Shown piece after piece: positions 25,402 to 36,280 of a stretch of 36,280 nucleotides of DNA. The number at the start of each line of letters is the position of its first letter. The first letter of the stretch is position 1. Position numbers and translations under genes: made by a program. Below the pieces are notes generated by a model. It saw only the letters and a program-made list of their open reading frames with translations. It did no database searches and had not been told where the DNA came from. Location of the stretch: assembly GCA_016935365.1 (NCBI GenBank), contig JAFGRB010000188.1:1-36280 (forward strand), given 5' to 3'. The stretch comes from Deltaproteobacteria bacterium (lineage in GTDB: Bacteria > Myxococcota > B64-G9).

Positions 25402-26603
25402 TCACTCGTAGCGCAGCGCGTCGATGGGGTCGAGGCGCGCGGCCCGGCGCGCGGGGAAGTAGCCGAAGATCACGCCGATGGCGGCGGAGAAGAGGAAGGA
25501 GATGATGTGGATGCTCGAGTCGAAGAGGTAGGGCACGCCCATCACGCTCGAGAGGCCGATCGAGGCACCGGTGGCGAGCGCGATGCCGATGACGCCGCCG
25601 AGGCTCGACAGCACCACGGCCTCGATCAGGAACTGCAAGAGCACCTCCCGGCCCAGCGCGCCGATGGCCAGGCGGATGCCGATCTCGCGGGTGCGCTCGG
25701 TCACCGACACGAGCATGATGTTCATGATGCCGATCCCGCCGACCAGCAGGCTCACCGCGGCCACCGCGGCCAGCAGCATGGTCAGCACCCGGGTGGTGCC
25801 GGTCAGGGTCTCGGCGAGCTGGCGCGTGTCCATCACCCGGAAGTCCTCCTCCTCGCCCTTGCCGATCTTCCGCAGCTCGCGCAGCAAGGAGTTGAGCTGC
25901 TCCTTGGCCGCGTCGATCGAGGCGCCGTCGCGTACCGAGACCATGATCCGGTTGATGTCCTGGCTGCCCGTGAGCCGGCGCTGCACGGTGCGCAGCGGCA
26001 TCACCACGCTGTCGTCCTGGTCGTGGCCCATGCCCGCCTGGCCCTTGGACTTGAGCAGGCCGATCACGTCGCAGGCGAAGCCCTTGATGCGGATCTCGCT
26101 GCCGATCGGGCTCTGGCGGCCGAAGAGCTTCTCGCGGACCGTCTCGCCGATCACGCACACCGCCTTGCCCGAGCGCTCCTCGGCCTCGCTGAACGTGCGC
26201 CCGGCGGCCAGCTCCCAGTTGCCCACCTGGAAGTAGTCGTTGTGGGTGCCGTTGATCATGGTGGACCAGTTCTTGGCCTGGTGCACGGCGGTCTTCGTCG
26301 TGCTCACCACCGGGGCGACGCCCTGGGCGGAGTAGATCTGGTTGCGGATGGCCTCCACGTCCGCGCTCTTGAAGTTGGGGGCTCCCTGGGAGCCCGGGCC
26401 GAATCGCTGGCCGGGGACCACCATGAGCTGGTTGGTGCCCATGGATGCGATCTGGTCGGACACGGACCGGGTGGCGCCCTTGCCCAGGGTGACCAGGGTG
26501 ATGACGGCCGCGATGCCGATCACGATGCCGAGGATGGTCAGAAAGGAGCGCAGCAGGTTGCGCCGGATGGCGCGCAGCGCGAGCAGCAGCGTGTTCCACA
26601 GCA

Positions 26604-26604
<1 letters not shown>
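25402..26604 (-). CDS. MacB-type ABC transporter permease
   Basis: The 400-residue product begins MLWNTLLLALRAIRRNLLRS and follows the MacB four-TM plan: TM1 (LTILGIVIGIAAVITLVTLG), a periplasmic region of ~220 residues, then three closing TMs around VSLLVGGIGIMNIMLVSVTE and its RTREIGIRLAIGA cytoplasmic loop, and a final FGYFPARRAARLDPIDALRYE. All of this fits FtsX/MacB (mechanotransmission) permeases. Its ATG shares one base with the upstream ATPase stop (TGATG at 26602-26606), so ATPase and permease are separate polypeptides, unlike fused MacB. Last gene of the efflux operon. Confidence 0.92.
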
Positions 26605-27304
<700 letters not shown>

Positions 27305-27308
<4 letters not shown>

Positions 27309-28615
27309 GGCTGCATACCCACCAGGGTCTCGGTGATCACCTGGGTGCCGGCCTCGATCGGCCCGCCGGCGATCTCGGTCATCTGGCCGTTGCTGGGGCC
27401 GGTCTGGACCTCGATCGGCACGGCCCGGCCCTCGCGCAGCACCCAGACCCGCGGCGTGTCGTCTCGAGCCGGCGCCTGGGTCTTGCGCGGCCGAAAAGGC
27501 GGCCCGGGCAGCAGCTTGCCGACCAGACCGCCGCGCCGTCCCTTCGGCGCCGCGTCTGTCGCTGGCGGCGTGAAGCGAAGCGCGGCGTTCGGCACCAACA
27601 GCGCGTTCTCGTGCGTCAGGGTGATGATCTCGGCCGTACCGGTCATCCCGGGGCGCAGGCTGATGTCGTCGTTCTCGACCGCGATCAGCGTGGGGTAGGA
27701 CACGACCCCGTCCTTGACCTCGGATCCCAGGCCCACGCGGGAGATGACGCCCGTGTACTTGCGGCCGGGCCAGGCGTCGACGGTGAAGGTCGCCTGCTGG
27801 CCGACCTTCACCCGGCCGACATCGGCCTCGTCGACGTCCACCAGGAGCTCCATCTTGGCCAGGTCCTCGGCCAGGGTGAACAGCACCGGCGCCTGGAACA
27901 TGGCGGCCACTGTCTGTCCGGGCTCCACGCTGCGGACGAGCACCACCCCGTCGACCGGCGAGCGGATGCTGGCCTTGCCGAGGTTGGTCAGGTCCGACTG
28001 CAGGTTGGCCCGCGCCTGGGTGACGCTCGCGCGGGCGCTGGCCACGTTGGCCTCGGCGCGCTTCAGGTTGGCCTCGGCGGTGTCCATCTCGCTCCTGGAC
28101 GGCACCTTGCCGCCGGACAGCTCGGCGACCTCTCTCAGGCGCGCGAGCGTTGCCCGGGCTTCCATCTCCGTGGCCTGCGCCTGCTGCACCTGCGCCTCGG
28201 CCACGACCAGGCTGGCGCGGGACTTCGCCACGGCGTCTTTGAGCTTGGAGAGGTCGAGCTGGGCCAGCACCTGGCCCTTGCTCACCCGGTCGTTGTCGTC
28301 GACCAGCACCTCGGTGACGATGCCGGACTGCTCGCTGCTCACCTCGACCTTGTTGGTCGGCTGCAGGTTGCCGGTGGCGGAGACCTTGACCACCAGCCTG
28401 CCGAGCTCGGCCGGCTCGGTCCTGTAGCGCGGCATGTCCTGGCGCGCGTCGGGGCGAAGAAAGAAGGTGAATGCCGCGCCGAGGACCGCGAGCGTGACGA
28501 GGATCCAGATCCAGCGGCGCGAGCGATGTCCGGACGACTCGGCCGCGAGCAGCTTCGTAAGGGCGGCAGCCTGGTCGGCTGCCGGCTCGTCGGATGCGTT
28601 CTTCTCGTCGCTCAT
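27305..28615 (-). CDS. MacA-type membrane-fusion (periplasmic adaptor) protein
   Basis: The 436-residue product has one N-terminal TM (WIWILVTLAVLGAAFTFFLR), a lipoyl-like half (VKVSATGNLQPTNKVEVSSE), a long alpha-hairpin of about 100 residues (SRASLVVAEAQVQQAQATEM to ARASVTQARANLQSDLTNLG), the second lipoyl half (SPVDGVVLVRSVEPGQTVAA), beta-barrel and membrane-proximal domains, and a variable Arg/Pro-rich insert near the C-terminus (PKGRRGGLVGKLLPGPPFRP) that is unusual. It links the inner-membrane ABC pump to the outer-membrane factor. The start overlaps the outer-membrane-factor stop by 4 bases. Confidence 0.93.
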
Positions 28616-30057
28616 GGTGCGTCCTCGCCTGCCGGGCGGGCCTCGGCCTGCGGCGACCAGCCGCCGCCCAGTGCCTTGTACAAGCGGATCAGCGCGAGCA
28701 CCCCGTCGGCGCGGGTGCTCGCGAGACTGTCTTCCAGCGACAGCACGCTGCGCTCGGTGTCGAGCACAGACTGGAAGTCGATCACCCCGGCCCCGTATCG
28801 CTGCCTGGCGAGCTCGGCCGCGTTGCGCGCTGCCCCCGCGGCCCGCGTGAGCGCCTCTTCTCGCTCGCGGTGGCGGGCCAGGGCCACCAGCGCGTTCTCC
28901 ACGTCTTGCAGGGCGGTCAGCACGGCCTGCTCGTAGGCCACCAGGGCCTGCTCGCAGACGGCATCCTGGGCCTCGACCTGGGCGCGCAGGCGGCCGCCCT
29001 GGAAGAGCGGCGCGGTGATGCCGCCGAGCAGGGAGTAGACCAGCCCGGCGCCGTTGCCGAGCGCGCCCTGCACGGCTGCGTCCAGGCCGATCGAGCCCGA
29101 GAGCGAGAAAGAGGGGTAGAGCGCGGCCTCGGCGACGCCGATCCGGGCGGTCTCGGCGGCCAGCTTGCGCTCGGCGGCGCGCACGTCCGGGCGCTGGCGG
29201 AGCGCGTCGGCCGGGATGCCGACCGCGATCCGATCCGGCATCGCGGGCAGCTCGCCGCCCGCGGCCAGGCGCGCGTGCAGCGCGCCCGGCGCCTTGCCCA
29301 GCAGGACGTCCAGGCGGTGCTCCGCCTCGGCCAGGCCGGTCTCGAGGCTGGGGATCTGGGCCCGGGTCTGCTCCCGGTTGCTGGTGGCCTGCTCGACGTC
29401 CTGGCTGCTCACCAGCCCGGCCTTGGCGCGGAACTCTGTGAGCGCGAGCGTCTCGGTCTGGCTCTCGAGGTTGCGGCGACTGATCCGGAGGCGGATCTGC
29501 AGGCAGCGGACCTCGAAGTAGCTCCGCGCCACCTCGGCCACCAGCGTGATCCGGGCGTCGTGCAGGCCGGCCTCGGACGAGGCCCGATCCGCCTCGGACG
29601 CCTCCACGCTCCGGCGCACGCCGCCGAAGACGTCGATCTCCCAGCTCGCGTCGAAGCCCGCGGTGAACGAGTTGCTGGTCTGCCCGCTGCCGGTGTGGAC
29701 GATCGACTGCCTGCGGCTCGCCGAGCCCGAGGCGGAAAGCGATGGAAGCTGCGCCGCGCCGGCCATGGCGCGGCGGGCGCGCGCCTCGCGCAGCCGGGCC
29801 CTCGCCATGCGAAGATCGGGGCTCGCCCGCAGGGCCTCCTCCACGAGCGCGTCGAGCATCGGATCATCCAGGCGATGCCACCAGCGGCTGAGATCGCCCG
29901 GGTCGTCGGCGCTCGCGAGACCGGGCGTCTCGTCGAGCCGGCTCCAGCGCCCCGGCGCGTCCGGCTCTGCCTTGCGGTAGTCCGGGCCCACCGCGCAGCC
30001 CGGGCCGAGCCCGGAGACGAGCAGCAGCCAGAGCGATAACTTGGTCAGATAACGCAT
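28612..30057 (-). CDS. TolC/NodT-type outer-membrane efflux factor (lipoprotein)
   Basis: From ATG 30057 the product is 481 residues with signal peptide MRYLTKLSLWLLLVSGLGPG followed by Cys at lipobox GPGC and the family's CAVGPDYRKAEPDAPG start. Two OEP repeats follow: helical stretches such as RMARARLREARARRAMAGAA and SQDVEQATSNREQTRAQIPS alternate with beta segments LSASGSASRRQS and FSLSGSIGLDAAVQ. The final helix is QRYGAGVIDFQSVLDTERSV. A GTG at 30069 would add four residues. First gene of the operon; its upstream gap is shared with the divergent Fic gene. Confidence 0.92.
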   Translation of the reverse strand: MRYLTKLSLWLLLVSGLGPGCAVGPDYRKAEPDAPGRWSRLDETPGLASADDPGDLSRWWHRLDDPMLDALVEEALRASPDLRMARARLREARARRAMAGAAQLPSLSASGSASRRQSIVHTGSGQTSNSFTAGFDASWEIDVFGGVRRSVEASEADRASSEAGLHDARITLVAEVARSYFEVRCLQIRLRISRRNLESQTETLALTEFRAKAGLVSSQDVEQATSNREQTRAQIPSLETGLAEAEHRLDVLLGKAPGALHARLAAGGELPAMPDRIAVGIPADALRQRPDVRAAERKLAAETARIGVAEAALYPSFSLSGSIGLDAAVQGALGNGAGLVYSLLGGITAPLFQGGRLRAQVEAQDAVCEQALVAYEQAVLTALQDVENALVALARHREREEALTRAAGAARNAAELARQRYGAGVIDFQSVLDTERSVLSLEDSLASTRADGVLALIRLYKALGGGWSPQAEARPAGEDAP

Positions 30058-30139
30058 ACGCTCACACACTCCGAATGACCCACAATACCGAGATCGGGTT
30101 GACAGCCACCCGCAAGCCCATCCATTTTTATCCGATCGA

Positions 30140-30168
30140 TTGACAGATCTTCTGAAATTGGATAATTA
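30140..30168 (+). promoter_or_regulatory. Sigma-70-like promoter of the Fic gene
   Basis: A perfect -35 TTGACA (30140-30145) is followed by TAATTA at 17 bases (30163-30168) or GATAAT at 15 (30161-30166), giving a leader of about 20 bases carrying GGAGGTG. A second TTGACA at 30099 lacks a matching -10. This A/T-rich patch is the only clean consensus promoter in this part of the window. Confidence 0.65.
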
Positions 30169-30193
30169 TGGACAAAAATGCGGAGGTGCCGGG

Positions 30194-31240
30194 ATGGATC
30201 CCTTGGCCCAAACTGTCATCACACCGGAGCTTCTCAGGAGGATCGCCGAGATAGACGAGTTCAAGGGACGCTGGGAGGCGCTTGGAAATCTGGCGCCGGA
30301 GCGCCTGTCGGCGCTCAGACGCATCGCCACGATCGAGTCGGTGGGCTCGTCGACCCGGATCGAGGGCGCCAAGCTCGGCGACGACGAGATAGGCAAGCTG
30401 CTGTCCGGTCTGGACATGCGATCGTTCCGCACGCGCGACGAGCAGGAGGTGGCGGGCTATGCCGAGCTGATGGAGCGCATCTTCGAGTCGCATGCCGAGA
30501 TTCCGCTGACCGAGAGCTTCATCCGCCAGCTCCACGGGATCCTGCTCGGGTACTCCGACAGGGACGAGCGCCACCGGGGGAAGTACAAGACCCTTCCCAA
30601 CAGCGTGGAGGCCTTCGACTCGGACGGCCGCAGCGTCGGCATCATCTTCGAGACGGCCACGCCCTTCGACACGCCTCGCCTGATGGAGGCCTTGGTGGCC
30701 TGGACCCGCGAGGCGCTCGCCGAGCGCAGGCATCACGTCTTGCTGGTCATCGCGGTCTTCGTCGTTCGCTTCCTGGCGATCCATCCCTTCCAGGATGGCA
30801 ACGGTCGCCTGTCACGGGCGCTGACCACCTTGCTGCTGCTTCGGTCCGGCTACCGATACGTCCCGTACAGCTCTCTCGAACGGGTCGTCGAGGACAGCAA
30901 GGACGCGTATTACGCAGCCCTTCGCAGGGCGCAGGCCACCCTGGACGGAGACGAGTCCCATCTCATCGACTGGCTCACCTTCTTCGTGCGAACCCTGCAC
31001 CGGCAGAAAGAGGTCCTCGAGCGGAAGATAGAGCAGAAGAGGCTCATGGCCCCGCTCGCGCCGCTGTCGGAGAAGCTCCTCGGCATCGTGGCGGAGCACG
31101 GCCGGGTCACCGTTCGCGAGGCCGCAGTGCTCACGAAGGCCAACCGAAACACGATCAAGGATCACCTCGGCAAGCTTGTTATGGCGGGCCGGCTGGCGAG
31201 ACGCGGCCGCGGTCGCGGGACCTGGTACGAAAAGGCCTAG
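30194..31240 (+). CDS. Fic-domain protein with N-terminal inhibitory motif and C-terminal winged helix
   Basis: ATG 30194 sits behind GGAGGTG; an 18-residue TTG extension would start inside the promoter and is rejected. The 348-residue product has the Fic active loop HPFQDGNGR (about residues 197-205; catalytic His197) and a flap strand GKYKTLPNSV. An inhibitory helix with STRIEG at residues 53-58 matches [S/T]xxxE[G/N] placed before the Fic core, the class II arrangement, so the protein should be autoinhibited by its own Glu57. The C-terminal ~55 residues are a winged helix (LGIVAEHGRVTVREAAVLTK). Fic proteins transfer AMP or other nucleotides to hydroxyl groups of targets. No separate antitoxin neighbours it. 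Confidence 0.93.
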   Translation: MDPLAQTVITPELLRRIAEIDEFKGRWEALGNLAPERLSALRRIATIESVGSSTRIEGAKLGDDEIGKLLSGLDMRSFRTRDEQEVAGYAELMERIFESHAEIPLTESFIRQLHGILLGYSDRDERHRGKYKTLPNSVEAFDSDGRSVGIIFETATPFDTPRLMEALVAWTREALAERRHHVLLVIAVFVVRFLAIHPFQDGNGRLSRALTTLLLLRSGYRYVPYSSLERVVEDSKDAYYAALRRAQATLDGDESHLIDWLTFFVRTLHRQKEVLERKIEQKRLMAPLAPLSEKLLGIVAEHGRVTVREAAVLTKANRNTIKDHLGKLVMAGRLARRGRGRGTWYEKA

Positions 31241-31258
31241 CAGTGTTTCTTTCCGAGA

Positions 31259-31426
31259 GCCCCAAAGGGGCGTCATACACACAGCCCAGGGCGAAGCCCT
31301 GGGAAAAAAGGCGGACATGAATCGCTAAGCCCTTTCAGGGCTCTGGTGCTTTCTGCATCTCTATCCCAGGGCTTCGCCGGCAAAGCCGGCTTCGCCCTGG
31401 GCTATGTTGTTACGCCCCGTTGGGGC
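31259..31426. repeat. Cluster of intergenic palindromes (REP-like), copy A
   Basis: In order: GCCCC-AAA-GGGGC (31259-31271); CCCAGGGC-GAA-GCCCTGGG (31285-31303); AGCCCT-TTC-AGGGCT (31328-31342); CCCAGGGC...GCCCTGGG (31365-31401) enclosing GCCGGC-AAA-GCCGGC; GCCCC-GTT-GGGGC (31414-31426). The A-run after the second hairpin is on the wrong strand for a plus-strand terminator. The same two stem types recur at 35977 onward. No REP-associated transposase is present. Together with the 60 bases to the next gene this fills the 245-base gap. Confidence 0.8.
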
Positions 31427-31485
31427 TTGGACCCATCGGACATCGGTTGCGGAAATCGAGAGGCGCCTGTTTGTTCGCAACCCTG

Positions 31486-32415
31486 CTAAAAGCCCACCCC
31501 GAGCCCGACCTGCAGCGAGGGGGTGTAGAGGCCGGACTCGCCGAAGAGCAGCGAGTCGACGTCCTTGGCGGGGTGGAAGGGGATGAATCCGGCGGCGAAG
31601 AGGTCGCAGTCGAAGTCGTGGTAGCGGAAGAAGCGCACGCCCACCCGGGCCACCAGGCCGACCAGGAAGCAGTTGACCACGTCCCGGCTGTCGTCGTCGG
31701 CCGGGTTCAGCAGACCCTCGTAGCGCTGGTACTGCAGGCCGAGACCGGCGCTGGCATAGAAGCTGGCCGCGGACAGGGCGGAGAGCTCGTAGGCCACCTG
31801 GCCGTCGGCGCCGGCCGCGGCCCGGAGCACCTGCTCGTCGCCGCGCAGCGAGTCGTGCCAGCCGGCCGCGTGGATCCGGGCGATGACCTGCCAGTGGCCC
31901 GAGCCGCGGGCCATGCTGAAGGCCGCCCCGGGCGCGAAGACCGCGCCGTGCCCGCCCCGGCCCACGGTCTGGAAGAGCTCGAAGCGATAGGTGTTGGTGC
32001 CCTGGACGATGATCGAGTGGGAGGCCCGCTCCAGGAAGCTGTAGTGGGCGATGTCCTGCTGGAGCATGACCGGGTCGTTGCCCAGCACCAGCGAGATGGC
32101 CTGCTCGAGCCGCTCGAGCAGCTCGTCCGGATCGCGGATCTCGAAGCGCACCGGGATGGCCTGATCGATGCGGGCCGTCAGGGTGCGCGCGCCGGCGAGC
32201 TCCACCAGGCCCACCTGGAGCTGCTGCTGGCAGCCGTCCTCGACCAGCAGGTGGCTCGGGTGGCGGGCCAGCTCGATGCGGACCAGCCTCTCGAGCTCGG
32301 CCTGCTCCTGCTCGGGCGCCTGCACGCTCAGGCAGAGCCGGATCGCGGCCCGGGCCTGTGCGGCGATGCACAGGATCGCGAGCGCGAGCAGCGCTGACTG
32401 GACTTTCCGCGGCAT
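31486..32415 (-). CDS. Secreted outer-membrane beta-barrel-like protein, unknown
   Basis: The 309-residue product begins MPRKVQSALLALAILCIAAQ ending at ARA, a Sec signal peptide cut before AIRLC. Two halves follow: residues ~25-130 alpha/beta (LERLVRIELARHPSHLLVED; ELLERLEQAISLVLGNDPVM), then ~180 residues of beta strands (AAFSMARGSGHWQVIARIHA; SFYASAGLGLQYQRYEGLLN; CFLVGLVARVGVRFFRYHDF) ending SLQVGLGVGF. A C-terminal Phe is the Bam-recognised end of outer-membrane barrels. The start is preceded by GAGGGAGCC. It is 27 bases downstream of the related gene 32443-33795, so they form an operon. Confidence 0.72.
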   Translation of the reverse strand: MPRKVQSALLALAILCIAAQARAAIRLCLSVQAPEQEQAELERLVRIELARHPSHLLVEDGCQQQLQVGLVELAGARTLTARIDQAIPVRFEIRDPDELLERLEQAISLVLGNDPVMLQQDIAHYSFLERASHSIIVQGTNTYRFELFQTVGRGGHGAVFAPGAAFSMARGSGHWQVIARIHAAGWHDSLRGDEQVLRAAAGADGQVAYELSALSAASFYASAGLGLQYQRYEGLLNPADDDSRDVVNCFLVGLVARVGVRFFRYHDFDCDLFAAGFIPFHPAKDVDSLLFGESGLYTPSLQVGLGVGF

Positions 32416-32442
32416 GGCGGTGGCTCCCTCGTCCGAGGCGAC

Positions 32443-33795
32443 TCAGAACATCATTCCCAGCTTGACCGACAGGCCGGGGAACCAGGTGTGCAGCGCGCCG
32501 TGGTTGTCCTCGTTCTCCAGCCCGTAGGCCGGCAGGTTGAGCTCGGCCTGGAGAAAGAACTGCACCGTCGAGGCCCGCATGAACTCCCAGCCCGCGATCA
32601 GGTCCACGTCCAGGCCGCCGCCGAGCAGGGTGCTGCGGTCGCTCTCCCCCCGGGATCCCTCGGCCTTGATGGCCGAGAACCACAGGAGCTCGAACGACGC
32701 GCCGGCGCCCAGGTAGATCGAGTGCAGGCCGCGCGGGTTGAGGTAGCGCAGGAAGTGCAGCTGCAGGCCCACGTCGCCGCCGAAGTCGATGTGGCCTCCC
32801 TGGGAGTTGTGGCGCGAGGCGGTCTTGGAGGTGCTGATGCCCACCAGGGCCTTGGACTCGATGCCCCAGTTCTCGAACTTGCCCCGATAGCCCATCTCCA
32901 GGCTCATGGGGAAGAAGAGCCGCAGCTGGCTCTCCGTGCTGCCGTAGTCGGGGTCCGTGCTGTCCCGGGTGGCGGTCGTCTCGAACTGGCCGCCCCGGAC
33001 CTGGGTGCCCAGGCCGATGAAGAAGTGGTTGCTGCCCTTGATGCGCTGGGTGGACTGCTTCGAGTCCGAGCGCAGCACGGTGTCTCTGTTGATGGTGGCC
33101 GAGATGGGCACGTCGGCCAGCAGGGCGCTCACCGCCCGCTCGGCAAAGCGCGACAGCTCGTCCGGCTGCAGCTCGTCCACCCGCTCCTCGCGGTCGTGGC
33201 CCGAGTAGCGCGCGAAGACCGTCCAGCCGGACTGCAGGGGATAGAGCTCCACCCGCAGGGTCTCCTGGCAGTTCTCCCGCACGGCCGCGAAGCCCTGCTC
33301 GTGGGTGATGAAGTGCTCGATAAGCCGCCGCAGGTAGAGGGTGGGCGTCTGGCCGATGGGCAAGAAGCCCCTCCAGGCCTCGGCCTGCTCCTCGAGTACC
33401 TGCAGGTAGCGCTTGCCCTTGAGCTCGCTCTTGTCGGTGGGTTTCTCTTCGGGCTTGAGGGCTTGCGCGTGTTCCGGCCTCTCGTCCAGGGCGCTCACCT
33501 TGCCCAGGGCGTCCTCCCAGGGCCGGGCCGGCGGCTCGGATGCCGGCTCTTGGTCGGGCTTCGGCTCGGCGCCGGGCCTCGGCTCGCCGGGCGCGGTGGT
33601 CTCGGGCTTCTTCTCGGGCTCGGCCGGCTTCGCCTCCGGGGTCTCGATCACGGGCGCCTGGGCCTGCTCCTCGGCGGCCTCCACCAGCACGACCTCCACG
33701 CAGACCCGCGTGTTCTGCGCAGAGGCTCGCTGGCTCGAGCAGACCAGCGCAGCCAGAGCGAAACAGATTGGGATCCATTGTCTACTCGAGCGCAT
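32443..33795 (-). CDS. Secreted outer-membrane barrel protein with Pro/Glu/Lys-rich linker, unknown
   Basis: The 450-residue product has a signal peptide (RSSRQWIPICFALAALVCSS, cut after ASA), a short N-terminal strand (NTRVCVEVVLVEAA) and a disordered Pro/Glu/Lys linker (~residues 45-120). A helical middle follows (RYLQVLEEQAEAWRGFLPIG; PTLYLRRLIEHFITHEQGFA), then beta strands ending SVKLGMMF. The middle domain resembles the N-terminal half of its operon partner, so the pair look like divergent paralogues. The ATG is preceded by AAGGAGGTGA, a full-length anti-16S match and the strongest ribosome-binding site in the window. Divergent from the PEGA gene. Confidence 0.75.
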   Translation of the reverse strand: MRSSRQWIPICFALAALVCSSQRASAQNTRVCVEVVLVEAAEEQAQAPVIETPEAKPAEPEKKPETTAPGEPRPGAEPKPDQEPASEPPARPWEDALGKVSALDERPEHAQALKPEEKPTDKSELKGKRYLQVLEEQAEAWRGFLPIGQTPTLYLRRLIEHFITHEQGFAAVRENCQETLRVELYPLQSGWTVFARYSGHDREERVDELQPDELSRFAERAVSALLADVPISATINRDTVLRSDSKQSTQRIKGSNHFFIGLGTQVRGGQFETTATRDSTDPDYGSTESQLRLFFPMSLEMGYRGKFENWGIESKALVGISTSKTASRHNSQGGHIDFGGDVGLQLHFLRYLNPRGLHSIYLGAGASFELLWFSAIKAEGSRGESDRSTLLGGGLDVDLIAGWEFMRASTVQFFLQAELNLPAYGLENEDNHGALHTWFPGLSVKLGMMF

Positions 33796-34050
33796 GCATC
33801 ACCTCCTTGCTCCCGTCGCTTCGGGTGCAGATCTCCCCTGGCTTTCCAGCGCATCCATCTGTACTGGAAGCTCTCGCTCCGCGGGAATCGATGAGCAAAC
33901 CGCGTGCCAGGTGCTCCGGCTGTCGAGAGCCTCCCAGTGGACCGTATGGAACGGTGCGGCGCCCGAGCCGGCATACCGTGGCGTGTTTCGACCACAGGTG
34001 TGAAAGATGCGCACAATCCGCCGCCTAGGCTGTCTGGCAGCCTCACGAAT

Positions 34051-34079
34051 TTGACTCGACCAGGAGCCTCGGGGACAAT
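34051..34079 (+). promoter_or_regulatory. Promoter TTGACT-17-GACAAT of the PEGA gene (leaderless)
   Basis: TTGACT (34051-34056), a 17-base spacer and GACAAT (34074-34079) give two near-consensus sigma-70 boxes. Transcription should start at about 34085-34087, exactly at the ATG (34086), so the mRNA would have no leader. The rest of the 290-base divergent region holds no gene, repeat or terminator I can recognise. Confidence 0.6.
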
Positions 34080-34085
34080 GGCCGC

Positions 34086-35951
34086 ATGCGGAGCTGCTGC
34101 CTCATCTTCGCGCTCGCGCTGCTCGCCGGCCAGGCGCGCGGTCAAGCCGCCAAGCCCGCCCCCCGGTGCACGGGCTGGATCCAGGTGGAGACGCCCGGCG
34201 TCGAGGGCGCCAGCGTGATCCTGGACGGCAAGCAGGTCCCCGAGACCACCCCGGCCACGATCAAGGACGTGCCCTGCGGCCGGCATGCGATCCGGGTCGA
34301 GAAGCGGCTCTACAAGCGGGCGCGGCAGAGAGTCCGGGTGAAGCTCGGCGAGGTGAGCACGGTCCGGATCCGGCTCGTCGAGGACTTCGGCTTCCTGACG
34401 GTCCGGAGCGTGCCGCCCGAGGCGGTCATCAAGCTGGACGGCCAGGTGGCCGGAAAGAGCCCGCTCGAGGGCCTGGTCGTGCCGGCGGGCCGGCACGTGC
34501 TCGCAGCCGAGCTGCCCCACCACAGCCCGGCCCGCGAGCGGATCCGCATCCGGCCCGGCCAGCGCAAGGACCTGACGCTCCGGCCGCGCCTGAACGTCGC
34601 GCTGCTCGACGTCACCACCCGGCCTGCCGGGGCCGAGGTCCTGCTCGACGGCAAGAAGCTCGGTCCGGGTCCGATCGAGAAGACCCGGATCGCGGCCGGC
34701 CGACACAGCCTGCGCGTCGAGCTCGGGGATCACGATCCAATCGAGCGCCGCTTTCGCATCCGGCGCGGGCAGGCCCTGTCCTTCGATCTCGTGCCCGAGC
34801 CGCTCTTCGGTCGGCTCGAGCTGCACAGCGAGCCGGAGCCCCACTGCCCGGTGCTGCTCGACGGAGATCCGCTCGGTCCGGCACCGCTGGTCCTCGAGAG
34901 GGTGCCGGTGGGCGAGCACGAGCTGCGCGTGGAGTGCCCGCGATTCGCGGTCTTCCAGCGACGCGTGCGCATCCAGGCGGGCAAGAGCGTCCGGGTGGCG
35001 GCCAAGCTCACGCCGCGGACCGCGCGTCTGAGCGTCTGGACCGAGCCGCCGGACTGCTTCGTCTGGGTGGATGGATGGGATCTCGGGCCCGCGCCCGTCT
35101 CGGTGGAGATGGAGCCCGGGCGCTACGAGCTGCGCGCCGGCGCGTGCGAGCGGCAGGGCGAGGAGCTGGGCTTCGCGGCGACCCGGATCCGGCTCGAGCC
35201 CGGCAAGCACCTGGAGATGGACGTCGAGGTGCCGCGCAAGCCGGGCCGTCTGCTCATCAAGACGGAGCCGCCCGGAGCGCGCGTCCTGGTGGACGGGCGG
35301 AAGCGCGGCAAGGCGCCCGTGGACCTGGAGCTGCCCGCGGGGGCGCATGCGATCGAGGCCCGTCAGGGCAAGAAGAGCCTGCTGGGCCGGATCGAGCTGC
35401 GCAGCGGCCAGGTCTCCAAGGTGGGCCTGGACCTCGACCGTCCGGGGCGATCGGTCTTCATCGAGCCGACCGAGCCGGAGATCGCGAGCCTGCTGGAGCC
35501 CGGAGAGAAGCTGCGCGGCTCCGACCAGGACAGGCTCGATGGGAACGGCGCGGTCACCGACGTGAGCGCCAGGGCGGCTGCGCCCATGTCCACCCGGCGG
35601 GTCTTCGCATGGATCAGCGCGAGCGCAGCCGGGGCCTCGGCAGCGGCGGCCGTGGGCTGCCTGGTGGCCGGGGCGGTGACCGAGTCCGATGCGAACGAGG
35701 CCTACTCGGAATACCTGCAGAACCAGACGACCGAGAACAGGCTCCGCTACGAGGACCTGGACCGCAAGTCGTCGGATCTCTACCTCGCCGGCTGGATCAT
35801 GGTCGGGGCCGCGGCCGGAGTGGGGGCGCTTTCGGTGTATCTCTTCCTCAGCGAGCCGGAGCCGGAGGTCGATCTCAGCGGGCCGGCCGAGGGCCCGCGC
35901 GCAGCGCCGCTTCCCGGGGGTGGGTGGATCGGCTACCAGGGGCGTTTCTAG
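34086..35951 (+). CDS. PEGA-domain repeat protein with two C-terminal TMs
   Basis: The 621-residue product begins MRSCCLIFALALLAGQARGQ (signal peptide). It then carries six tandem PEGA-like repeats at about residues 30-98, 102-168, 170-238, 242-309, 312-383 and 386-452. Each has the motif of a Pro-x-Gly-Ala or Pro-Glu-Ala strand followed by VxLDG...G..P and a final GRHxLR strand. Residues ~506-531 (FAWISASAAGASAAAAVGCL) and ~566-588 are hydrophobic, separated by a coiled stretch. PEGA domains are short beta sandwiches thought to bind cell-surface or glycan partners. It is divergent from two secreted barrels and may belong to the same envelope apparatus. No upstream ribosome-binding site. Confidence 0.85.
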   Translation: MRSCCLIFALALLAGQARGQAAKPAPRCTGWIQVETPGVEGASVILDGKQVPETTPATIKDVPCGRHAIRVEKRLYKRARQRVRVKLGEVSTVRIRLVEDFGFLTVRSVPPEAVIKLDGQVAGKSPLEGLVVPAGRHVLAAELPHHSPARERIRIRPGQRKDLTLRPRLNVALLDVTTRPAGAEVLLDGKKLGPGPIEKTRIAAGRHSLRVELGDHDPIERRFRIRRGQALSFDLVPEPLFGRLELHSEPEPHCPVLLDGDPLGPAPLVLERVPVGEHELRVECPRFAVFQRRVRIQAGKSVRVAAKLTPRTARLSVWTEPPDCFVWVDGWDLGPAPVSVEMEPGRYELRAGACERQGEELGFAATRIRLEPGKHLEMDVEVPRKPGRLLIKTEPPGARVLVDGRKRGKAPVDLELPAGAHAIEARQGKKSLLGRIELRSGQVSKVGLDLDRPGRSVFIEPTEPEIASLLEPGEKLRGSDQDRLDGNGAVTDVSARAAAPMSTRRVFAWISASAAGASAAAAVGCLVAGAVTESDANEAYSEYLQNQTTENRLRYEDLDRKSSDLYLAGWIMVGAAAGVGALSVYLFLSEPEPEVDLSGPAEGPRAAPLPGGGWIGYQGRF

Positions 35952-35976
35952 CTACAGTGGCAATACTCGACCGAAA

Positions 35977-36192
35977 GCCCCGAAAGGGGCGCCATTAGCC
36001 AGCCCAGGGCTTCGCCCTGAGCCTTATACACATCTCAAAGCGCGAGGAAAGAATGGGCTTGGCACGCTCCGAGATCCGGGTGTTCGCTGCGAAGCAGCGA
36101 TGGGATGAAAGGGCGCGGCAATCTCGAGCCCTGTCCGAGACGCAGAGATGGCTGCGCCCCTTCAGGGCGCGTAAATCATCTTACCTTCTTAT
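35977..36192. repeat. Cluster of intergenic palindromes (REP-like), copy B
   Basis: Hairpins: GCCCC-GAAA-GGGGC (35977-35990), same type as copy A; AGGGC-TTC-GCCCT (36006-36018) inside CCCAGGGCTTCGCCCTGAG; TCGCTGC-GAA-GCAGCGA (36084-36100); GCGCCC-CTTCA-GGGCGC (36154-36170). No coding frame spans the region. The 14-base CTTATACACATCTC lies at 36023-36036. Clusters A and B flank the barrel/PEGA locus. Confidence 0.75.
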
Positions 36193-36220
36193 GCCTGGGG
36201 CTGAAGCCCCAGGCTTTATT
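36193..36220 (+). terminator. Strong hairpin with U-rich tail
   Basis: GCCTGGGGCT (36193-36202), loop GA, AGCCCCAGGC (36205-36214) is a perfect 10-bp stem (or 9 bp with a TGAA loop), followed by TTTATT. It can act as an intrinsic terminator for anything reading in from the left, yet it belongs to the same palindrome family as the rest of the cluster. Confidence 0.55.
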
Positions 36221-36280
36221 GTAGCGGCCGACAAGGCCACAATCCAGCAGGTGGAAGTCCTGCCATGTCAGTTGCCCGAG
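36221..36280 (+). other. Possible 5' part of a structured RNA element (group II intron-like), truncated
   Basis: The final 60 bases contain GGCC-GACAA-GGCC, then CAGCAGGTGGAAGTCCTGCC, which pairs as GCAGG...CCTGC, then GTTGCCCGAG. From memory, a CAGGTGGAAGTCCTG element of this kind occurs in the first domain of bacterial group II introns that carry a reverse transcriptase. The window ends here, so neither the intron ORF nor domain V can be seen. Confidence 0.3.

Follow-up and report, generated by a model that had tools for sequence, protein, structure and literature searches.

Genes A and B, which lie one behind the other on the minus strand of the window (the whole 36,280-nucleotide stretch of DNA analysed here), encode two predicted outer-membrane proteins that, judged by their sequences, make up a new and unnamed family. 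On balance we think that B and A are probably the two partners of a heteromer of outer-membrane barrels that has not been described before and has a function of its own, and which in one family has been recruited next to a module consisting of a PEGA-repeat protein and a kinase. The sequence-only reading that this analysis followed up had proposed that A, B and the PEGA protein may form a new trans-envelope assembly. What it observed of the three genes (exact coordinates, PEGA repeats, paralogy, barrels and ribosome-binding site) is confirmed. Its interpretation gains partial support: there is indeed a new, tightly conserved pair of barrels, and the case for an assembly of all three proteins depends on a gene order limited to one lineage. 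The features referred to throughout are these:

31486..32415, minus strand: gene A, 309 amino acids
A, residues about 1-23: signal peptide
A, residues about 24-113: predicted periplasmic alpha/beta domain, with invariant Cys28 and Cys62
A, residues about 141-309: predicted outer-membrane barrel of eight strands
32443..33795, minus strand: gene B, 450 amino acids
B, residues about 1-26: signal peptide
B, ahead of the insert: first strand of the N-terminal domain, with Cys32
33375..33675, minus strand: low-complexity Pro/Glu/Lys insert of B (residues about 41-140), which the model shows as disordered and which differs among orthologues in length and sequence
B, residues about 145-229: remainder of the alpha/beta domain, with invariant Cys176
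B, residues about 254-450: barrel of eight strands, ending in Phe
33796..33814, minus strand: Shine-Dalgarno sequence of B, AAGGAGGTGAT, -17.1 kcal/mol, the strongest of 21 window starts scored
33796..34085: divergent intergenic region between B and the PEGA gene, 290 bases
34051-34079, plus strand: weak sigma-70-like match, the single one in the intergenic region
34086..35951, plus strand: PEGA protein, 621 amino acids
34200-34379, 34389-34580, 34605-34793, 34848-35015, 35025-35135 and 35247-35435, plus strand: six PEGA repeats, above the PF08308 gathering score

Architecture and paralogy of A and B

The paralogy of A and B is borne out at every level of comparison. A single-pair BLASTP gives an E-value of 2e-5 and profile–profile alignment one of 3.5e-13, spanning nearly the whole length; compared domain by domain with hhalign, the N-terminal domains alone match with E 2e-9 and the barrels alone with E 2e-6, against 0.05-0.5 for unrelated controls. 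Neither protein matches a family in Pfam or NCBIfam, in keeping with the earlier remark that none has a named function, and searching the PDB by sequence found no relative of either. Apart from A and B themselves, no relative of the N-terminal domain was found in the window's own genome. Several candidates were rejected as below cut-off: for A this was BtrH_N (E 0.029), and for B they were Herpes_DNAp_acc, TspB and TonB, the B ones being low-complexity matches to the Pro/Glu insert. The periplasmic alpha/beta domains of TolB_N (PF04052) and CsgG (PF03783) have a strand–helix order that we take to be broadly like that of the N-terminal domain; profiles made from those families' own members in the relatives showed no similarity to it, with hhalign E-values of 0.08-0.58, the same as for unrelated controls.

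Though the AlphaFold2 models were built from shallow alignments of only 6-7 sequences (pLDDT 71 and pTM 0.49 for A, 64 and 0.41 for B), both contain a signal helix, an alpha/beta domain ordered as strand, helix, four strands and helix, and eight barrel strands, which in these moderate-confidence models are antiparallel and close a barrel. Foldseek searches of the PDB matched A to OmpX, NspA, OmpA and Ail, and B to OmpA and NspA, with E-values of 1e-6 to 1e-7 and TM-scores to the target of 0.6-0.7; the weaker matches to A include OmpW and PagL. The barrel-type C-termini proposed from the sequence are thus well founded, and the likeness is one of general eight-strand shape, identity to the matched barrels being 8-18%. 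What A and B have in common with OmpX, NspA, Ail and the transmembrane domain of OmpA is an eight-strand C-terminal barrel ending in Phe and, for B, first and third outer loops that vary among orthologues. However, in OmpA the periplasmic domain follows the barrel, whereas in A and B it precedes it, no OmpA-like C-terminal domain being present after the barrel of either; OmpX is without a periplasmic domain altogether. No sequence family match connects A and B to these proteins and, unlike them, A and B are obligately paired paralogues.

Both proteins carry a Sec signal peptide and a C-terminal aromatic residue, the signal for BAM. The leader of A is a computed hydrophobic segment, that of B a leader-like N-terminus recognised by eye, and the C-terminal residue is Phe in all correctly framed orthologues of both. 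The earlier term “secreted” holds insofar as the proteins are exported, but a predicted outer-membrane location describes them better. Cysteines occupy matching positions in the two N-terminal domains (C28/C62 in A, C32/C176 in B), and the conservation of these pairs points to a disulfide bond, which would place the domains in the periplasm. The Pro/Glu/Lys-rich stretch of B, taken before to be a linker, is real, but it is inserted within the N-terminal domain, where it separates the first strand from the first helix, rather than placed ahead of the barrel; its mean pairwise identity among orthologues is 0.18. B is otherwise the more conserved subunit, chiefly in the N-terminal domain and the later strands.

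Distribution of the B-A pair

Of 195 genomes searched from the window's phylum, the same 7 contain both A and B, with one weak exception, G091, where a single weak match to the B profile covers the barrel only. In this genome the locus L060 (8207-9364) encodes a single distant barrel protein that matches both profiles weakly (E 3e-5 with the A profile, 5e-12 with the B profile), possibly an unpaired outlier of the family. A scan of named genomes gave 13 loci, all from metagenome-assembled Deltaproteobacteria/Myxococcota (NCBI phylum Myxococcota), and a second phylum group, larger than the first, has matches in 26 of its 379 genomes, mostly strong, though some are weak and to the barrel only. 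In all 29 genomes of the two groups where adjacency could be tested (6 of the first group, 7 found by the named scan and another 16), B is followed immediately by A, with both genes on one strand; in G004 the two genes are at the edges of two contigs, and at L096 the contig stops at B. Overall the pair is present in about 30 Myxococcota-type genomes, and the main clades are common to the A tree and the B tree. Adjacency, co-occurrence and shared clades together indicate that B-A is inherited as a unit.

An all-against-all comparison of neighbours at 27 loci found no third universal partner outside the window's family, and no PEGA gene was found near B-A outside it. Kinases do lie near B-A at L040, L101, L102 and L107, though these are only ~30% identical, several kb away, and expected by chance given the numbers of kinases. 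At L041 (11660-12510), L042 (8797-9647) and L043 (5476-6326) genes for a CheX phosphatase and a CheY-like receiver, assigned by a Pfam run on L041 only, are convergent with A; they are a local feature of three related genomes rather than a universal partner.

It is conceivable, though we doubt it, that the two genes encode generic small outer-membrane barrels independent of each other, which lie side by side through tandem duplication and co-transcription and make no contact, the PEGA gene being an unrelated neighbour. The window's own genome (G000, 7.7 Mb) has 84 PF08308 matches and 71 matches to the Ser/Thr kinase query, and several contigs hold both, so neighbours of this kind come cheaply; moreover, the surroundings of B-A are unconserved outside one family. 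However, independent barrels would hardly be expected to co-occur so strictly, with no singletons among the genomes examined apart from the weak barrel match in G091, and A and B are each a separate clade-wide family and not recent duplicates. The strong conservation of B even across distant genomes would also be unusual for a generic barrel.

The PEGA protein and its neighbourhood

The third gene encodes a six-repeat PEGA membrane protein, just as had been read from the sequence: it has a signal peptide, six repeats above the curated cut-off (PF08308, E 1.4e-65 for the protein as a whole), hydrophobic helices at residues about 510-532 and 571-589, and a conserved C-terminal tail, PLPGGGWxGYxGRF. 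The repeats are what it has in common with other PF08308 periplasmic proteins; it differs from them in the two C-terminal helices and the PLPGGG tail, and has orthologues only in the window's family. To our knowledge there is no agreed function for PEGA domains, and a search of one literature library found nothing relevant on PEGA in myxobacteria or on barrel pairs of this kind.

The 290 bases separate the start codons of B and the PEGA gene, and the ribosome-binding site of B is, as previously claimed, the strongest in the window (the next best scores -11.5 kcal/mol). Aligning this region from five genera gave only scattered conserved columns with a mean column identity of 43%, and no conserved regulatory motif was found in it.

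B-A is divergent from a PEGA gene in the window and at L018, L019, L021 and L023 (the L021 contig ends before A), that is, at 5 of the 6 B-A loci of the window's family. The PEGA proteins in these four relatives are orthologues of the window's, and those of the blocks are 31-45% identical. Beyond PEGA, all four have a convergent Ser/Thr kinase gene, either adjacent or across one gene for an FGE-type Cys-rich protein; this kinase, which rounds off the PEGA side in the relatives, did not figure in the sequence-only reading. The kinase has an N-terminal Pkinase domain, a long linker, one transmembrane helix and a small C-terminal PEGA-like domain, which scores 20.5-23.6 bits in five relatives (20.5 at L019) and 18.6 at L018, against a cut-off of 20.8 bits that is exceeded at L021 and L039. 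This layout is also that of the PASTA-type membrane Ser/Thr kinases, from which the relatives' protein differs in that its terminal domain is PEGA-like, not PASTA.

In the window's own genome the kinase gene is cut by a contig end. The window stops 329 bases past PEGA, the orthologue of the kinase (70% identity, against 48% for the next best) is truncated at the first base of contig C168, and no overlap joining contigs C319 and C168 was found. On the other side of the kinase in G003, and close to it in G002, there is a similar lipoprotein-like gene. Given this neighbour and the position of the orthologue at the edge of C168, synteny makes it likely that PEGA and kinase are arranged here as in the relatives, although the contigs do not overlap.

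Several other elements flank the block. Acido-Lenti-1 RNA elements (RF01687) are found at 31258-31303 (minus strand), 31365-31427 (plus), 35976-36021 (minus) and 36194-36239 (plus), forming two divergent pairs that flank the block formed by A, B and PEGA; in a regional scan two of the four pass the gathering score and the others are weaker. Allowing up to 2 mismatches, their core sequence has 38 copies genome-wide (control 0), many of them close to contig ends, and a search of the relatives' loci found no such element. The published description of this RNA is from Acidobacteria and Lentisphaerae (PMC2864571). Immediately after the last element, positions 36245-36280 on the plus strand may be the beginning of a group II intron (RF02003, a weak match at E 0.66) that is truncated where the contig stops; an intron present in repeated copies could account for the assembly breaking off ahead of the kinase. 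On the other side, a Fic/DOC family protein with an N-terminal extension and a TTG start (30140-31240, plus strand) adjoins the barrel operon, and before it lies a MacB-type tripartite efflux operon (25405-30069, minus strand) of a MacB/FtsX permease, an ABC ATPase, an HlyD-type fusion protein and an outer-membrane efflux protein.

Across the genomes of the window's family the association of B-A with PEGA and kinase is weak (n=9 genomes), and adjacency to PEGA is confined to that family: G002 has B-A but no adjacent PEGA, G003 lacks B-A while keeping PEGA and the kinase, and G005 and G008 have the kinase only. The expectation that the three genes are conserved together thus holds for B-A, and for PEGA in 5 of the 6 same-family genomes with B-A, but not beyond the family, and the proposed assembly of all three gains from the linkage there and loses from its absence elsewhere. 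Since A's other neighbours differ among the four relatives, the linkage is not merely frozen gene order, and it suggests shared control or contact. A stronger version, in which surface barrels A and B signal through a PEGA-repeat bridge, engaged by their periplasmic domains, to an inner-membrane PEGA-tipped Ser/Thr kinase, would account both for the block of B-A, PEGA and single-pass kinase in four relatives and for its persistence among changing neighbours. We nevertheless regard such a sensor as unlikely, as G003, G005 and G008 keep the kinase, with or without PEGA, where B-A is missing, and most lineages keep B-A with neither PEGA nor kinase.

A probable paired outer-membrane unit

Least probable of all, in our estimation, is that B-A is an enzyme-like or pore unit akin to OmpW, OmpX or PagL, with a conserved extracellular segment of A as the working site and the N-terminal domains as anchors: P279 and D285 in the last loop of A are invariant and D287 nearly so while its other loops vary, and OmpW and PagL are among the weaker structural matches, but neither a catalytic triad nor a known active-site pattern could be recognised in A or B, and the structural matches reflect barrel shape at low identity.

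A and B are the products of a duplication of one ancestral gene and, in the heteromeric pair that we favour, would be the two subunits of a single outer-membrane unit. A and B would be exported by Sec and inserted by BAM, leaving their disulfide-bonded N-terminal domains to hang in the periplasm, and they may work as a stoichiometric pair, most likely through contact between these domains. The proline-rich insert of B might then be a flexible spacer reaching toward peptidoglycan or a periplasmic partner. Within one family, that of the window, a periplasmic PEGA-repeat protein has become the divergently encoded neighbour of B-A, and the C-terminal PEGA-like domain of the kinase is presumably periplasmic too. 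Judged from gene order, the most economical function of this block would be an envelope module whose PEGA parts span the periplasm, with the barrels as its surface element or as a co-regulated client.

The strong conservation of B-A, and the fact that its genes stay together across two deep branches, mean that the pair must have a specific task in these envelopes. In the window's own genome PEGA domains rank with the most frequent periplasmic modules, and a locus where a PEGA-repeat protein is repeatedly linked with both a PEGA-tipped kinase and surface barrels offers a defined place to probe their role.
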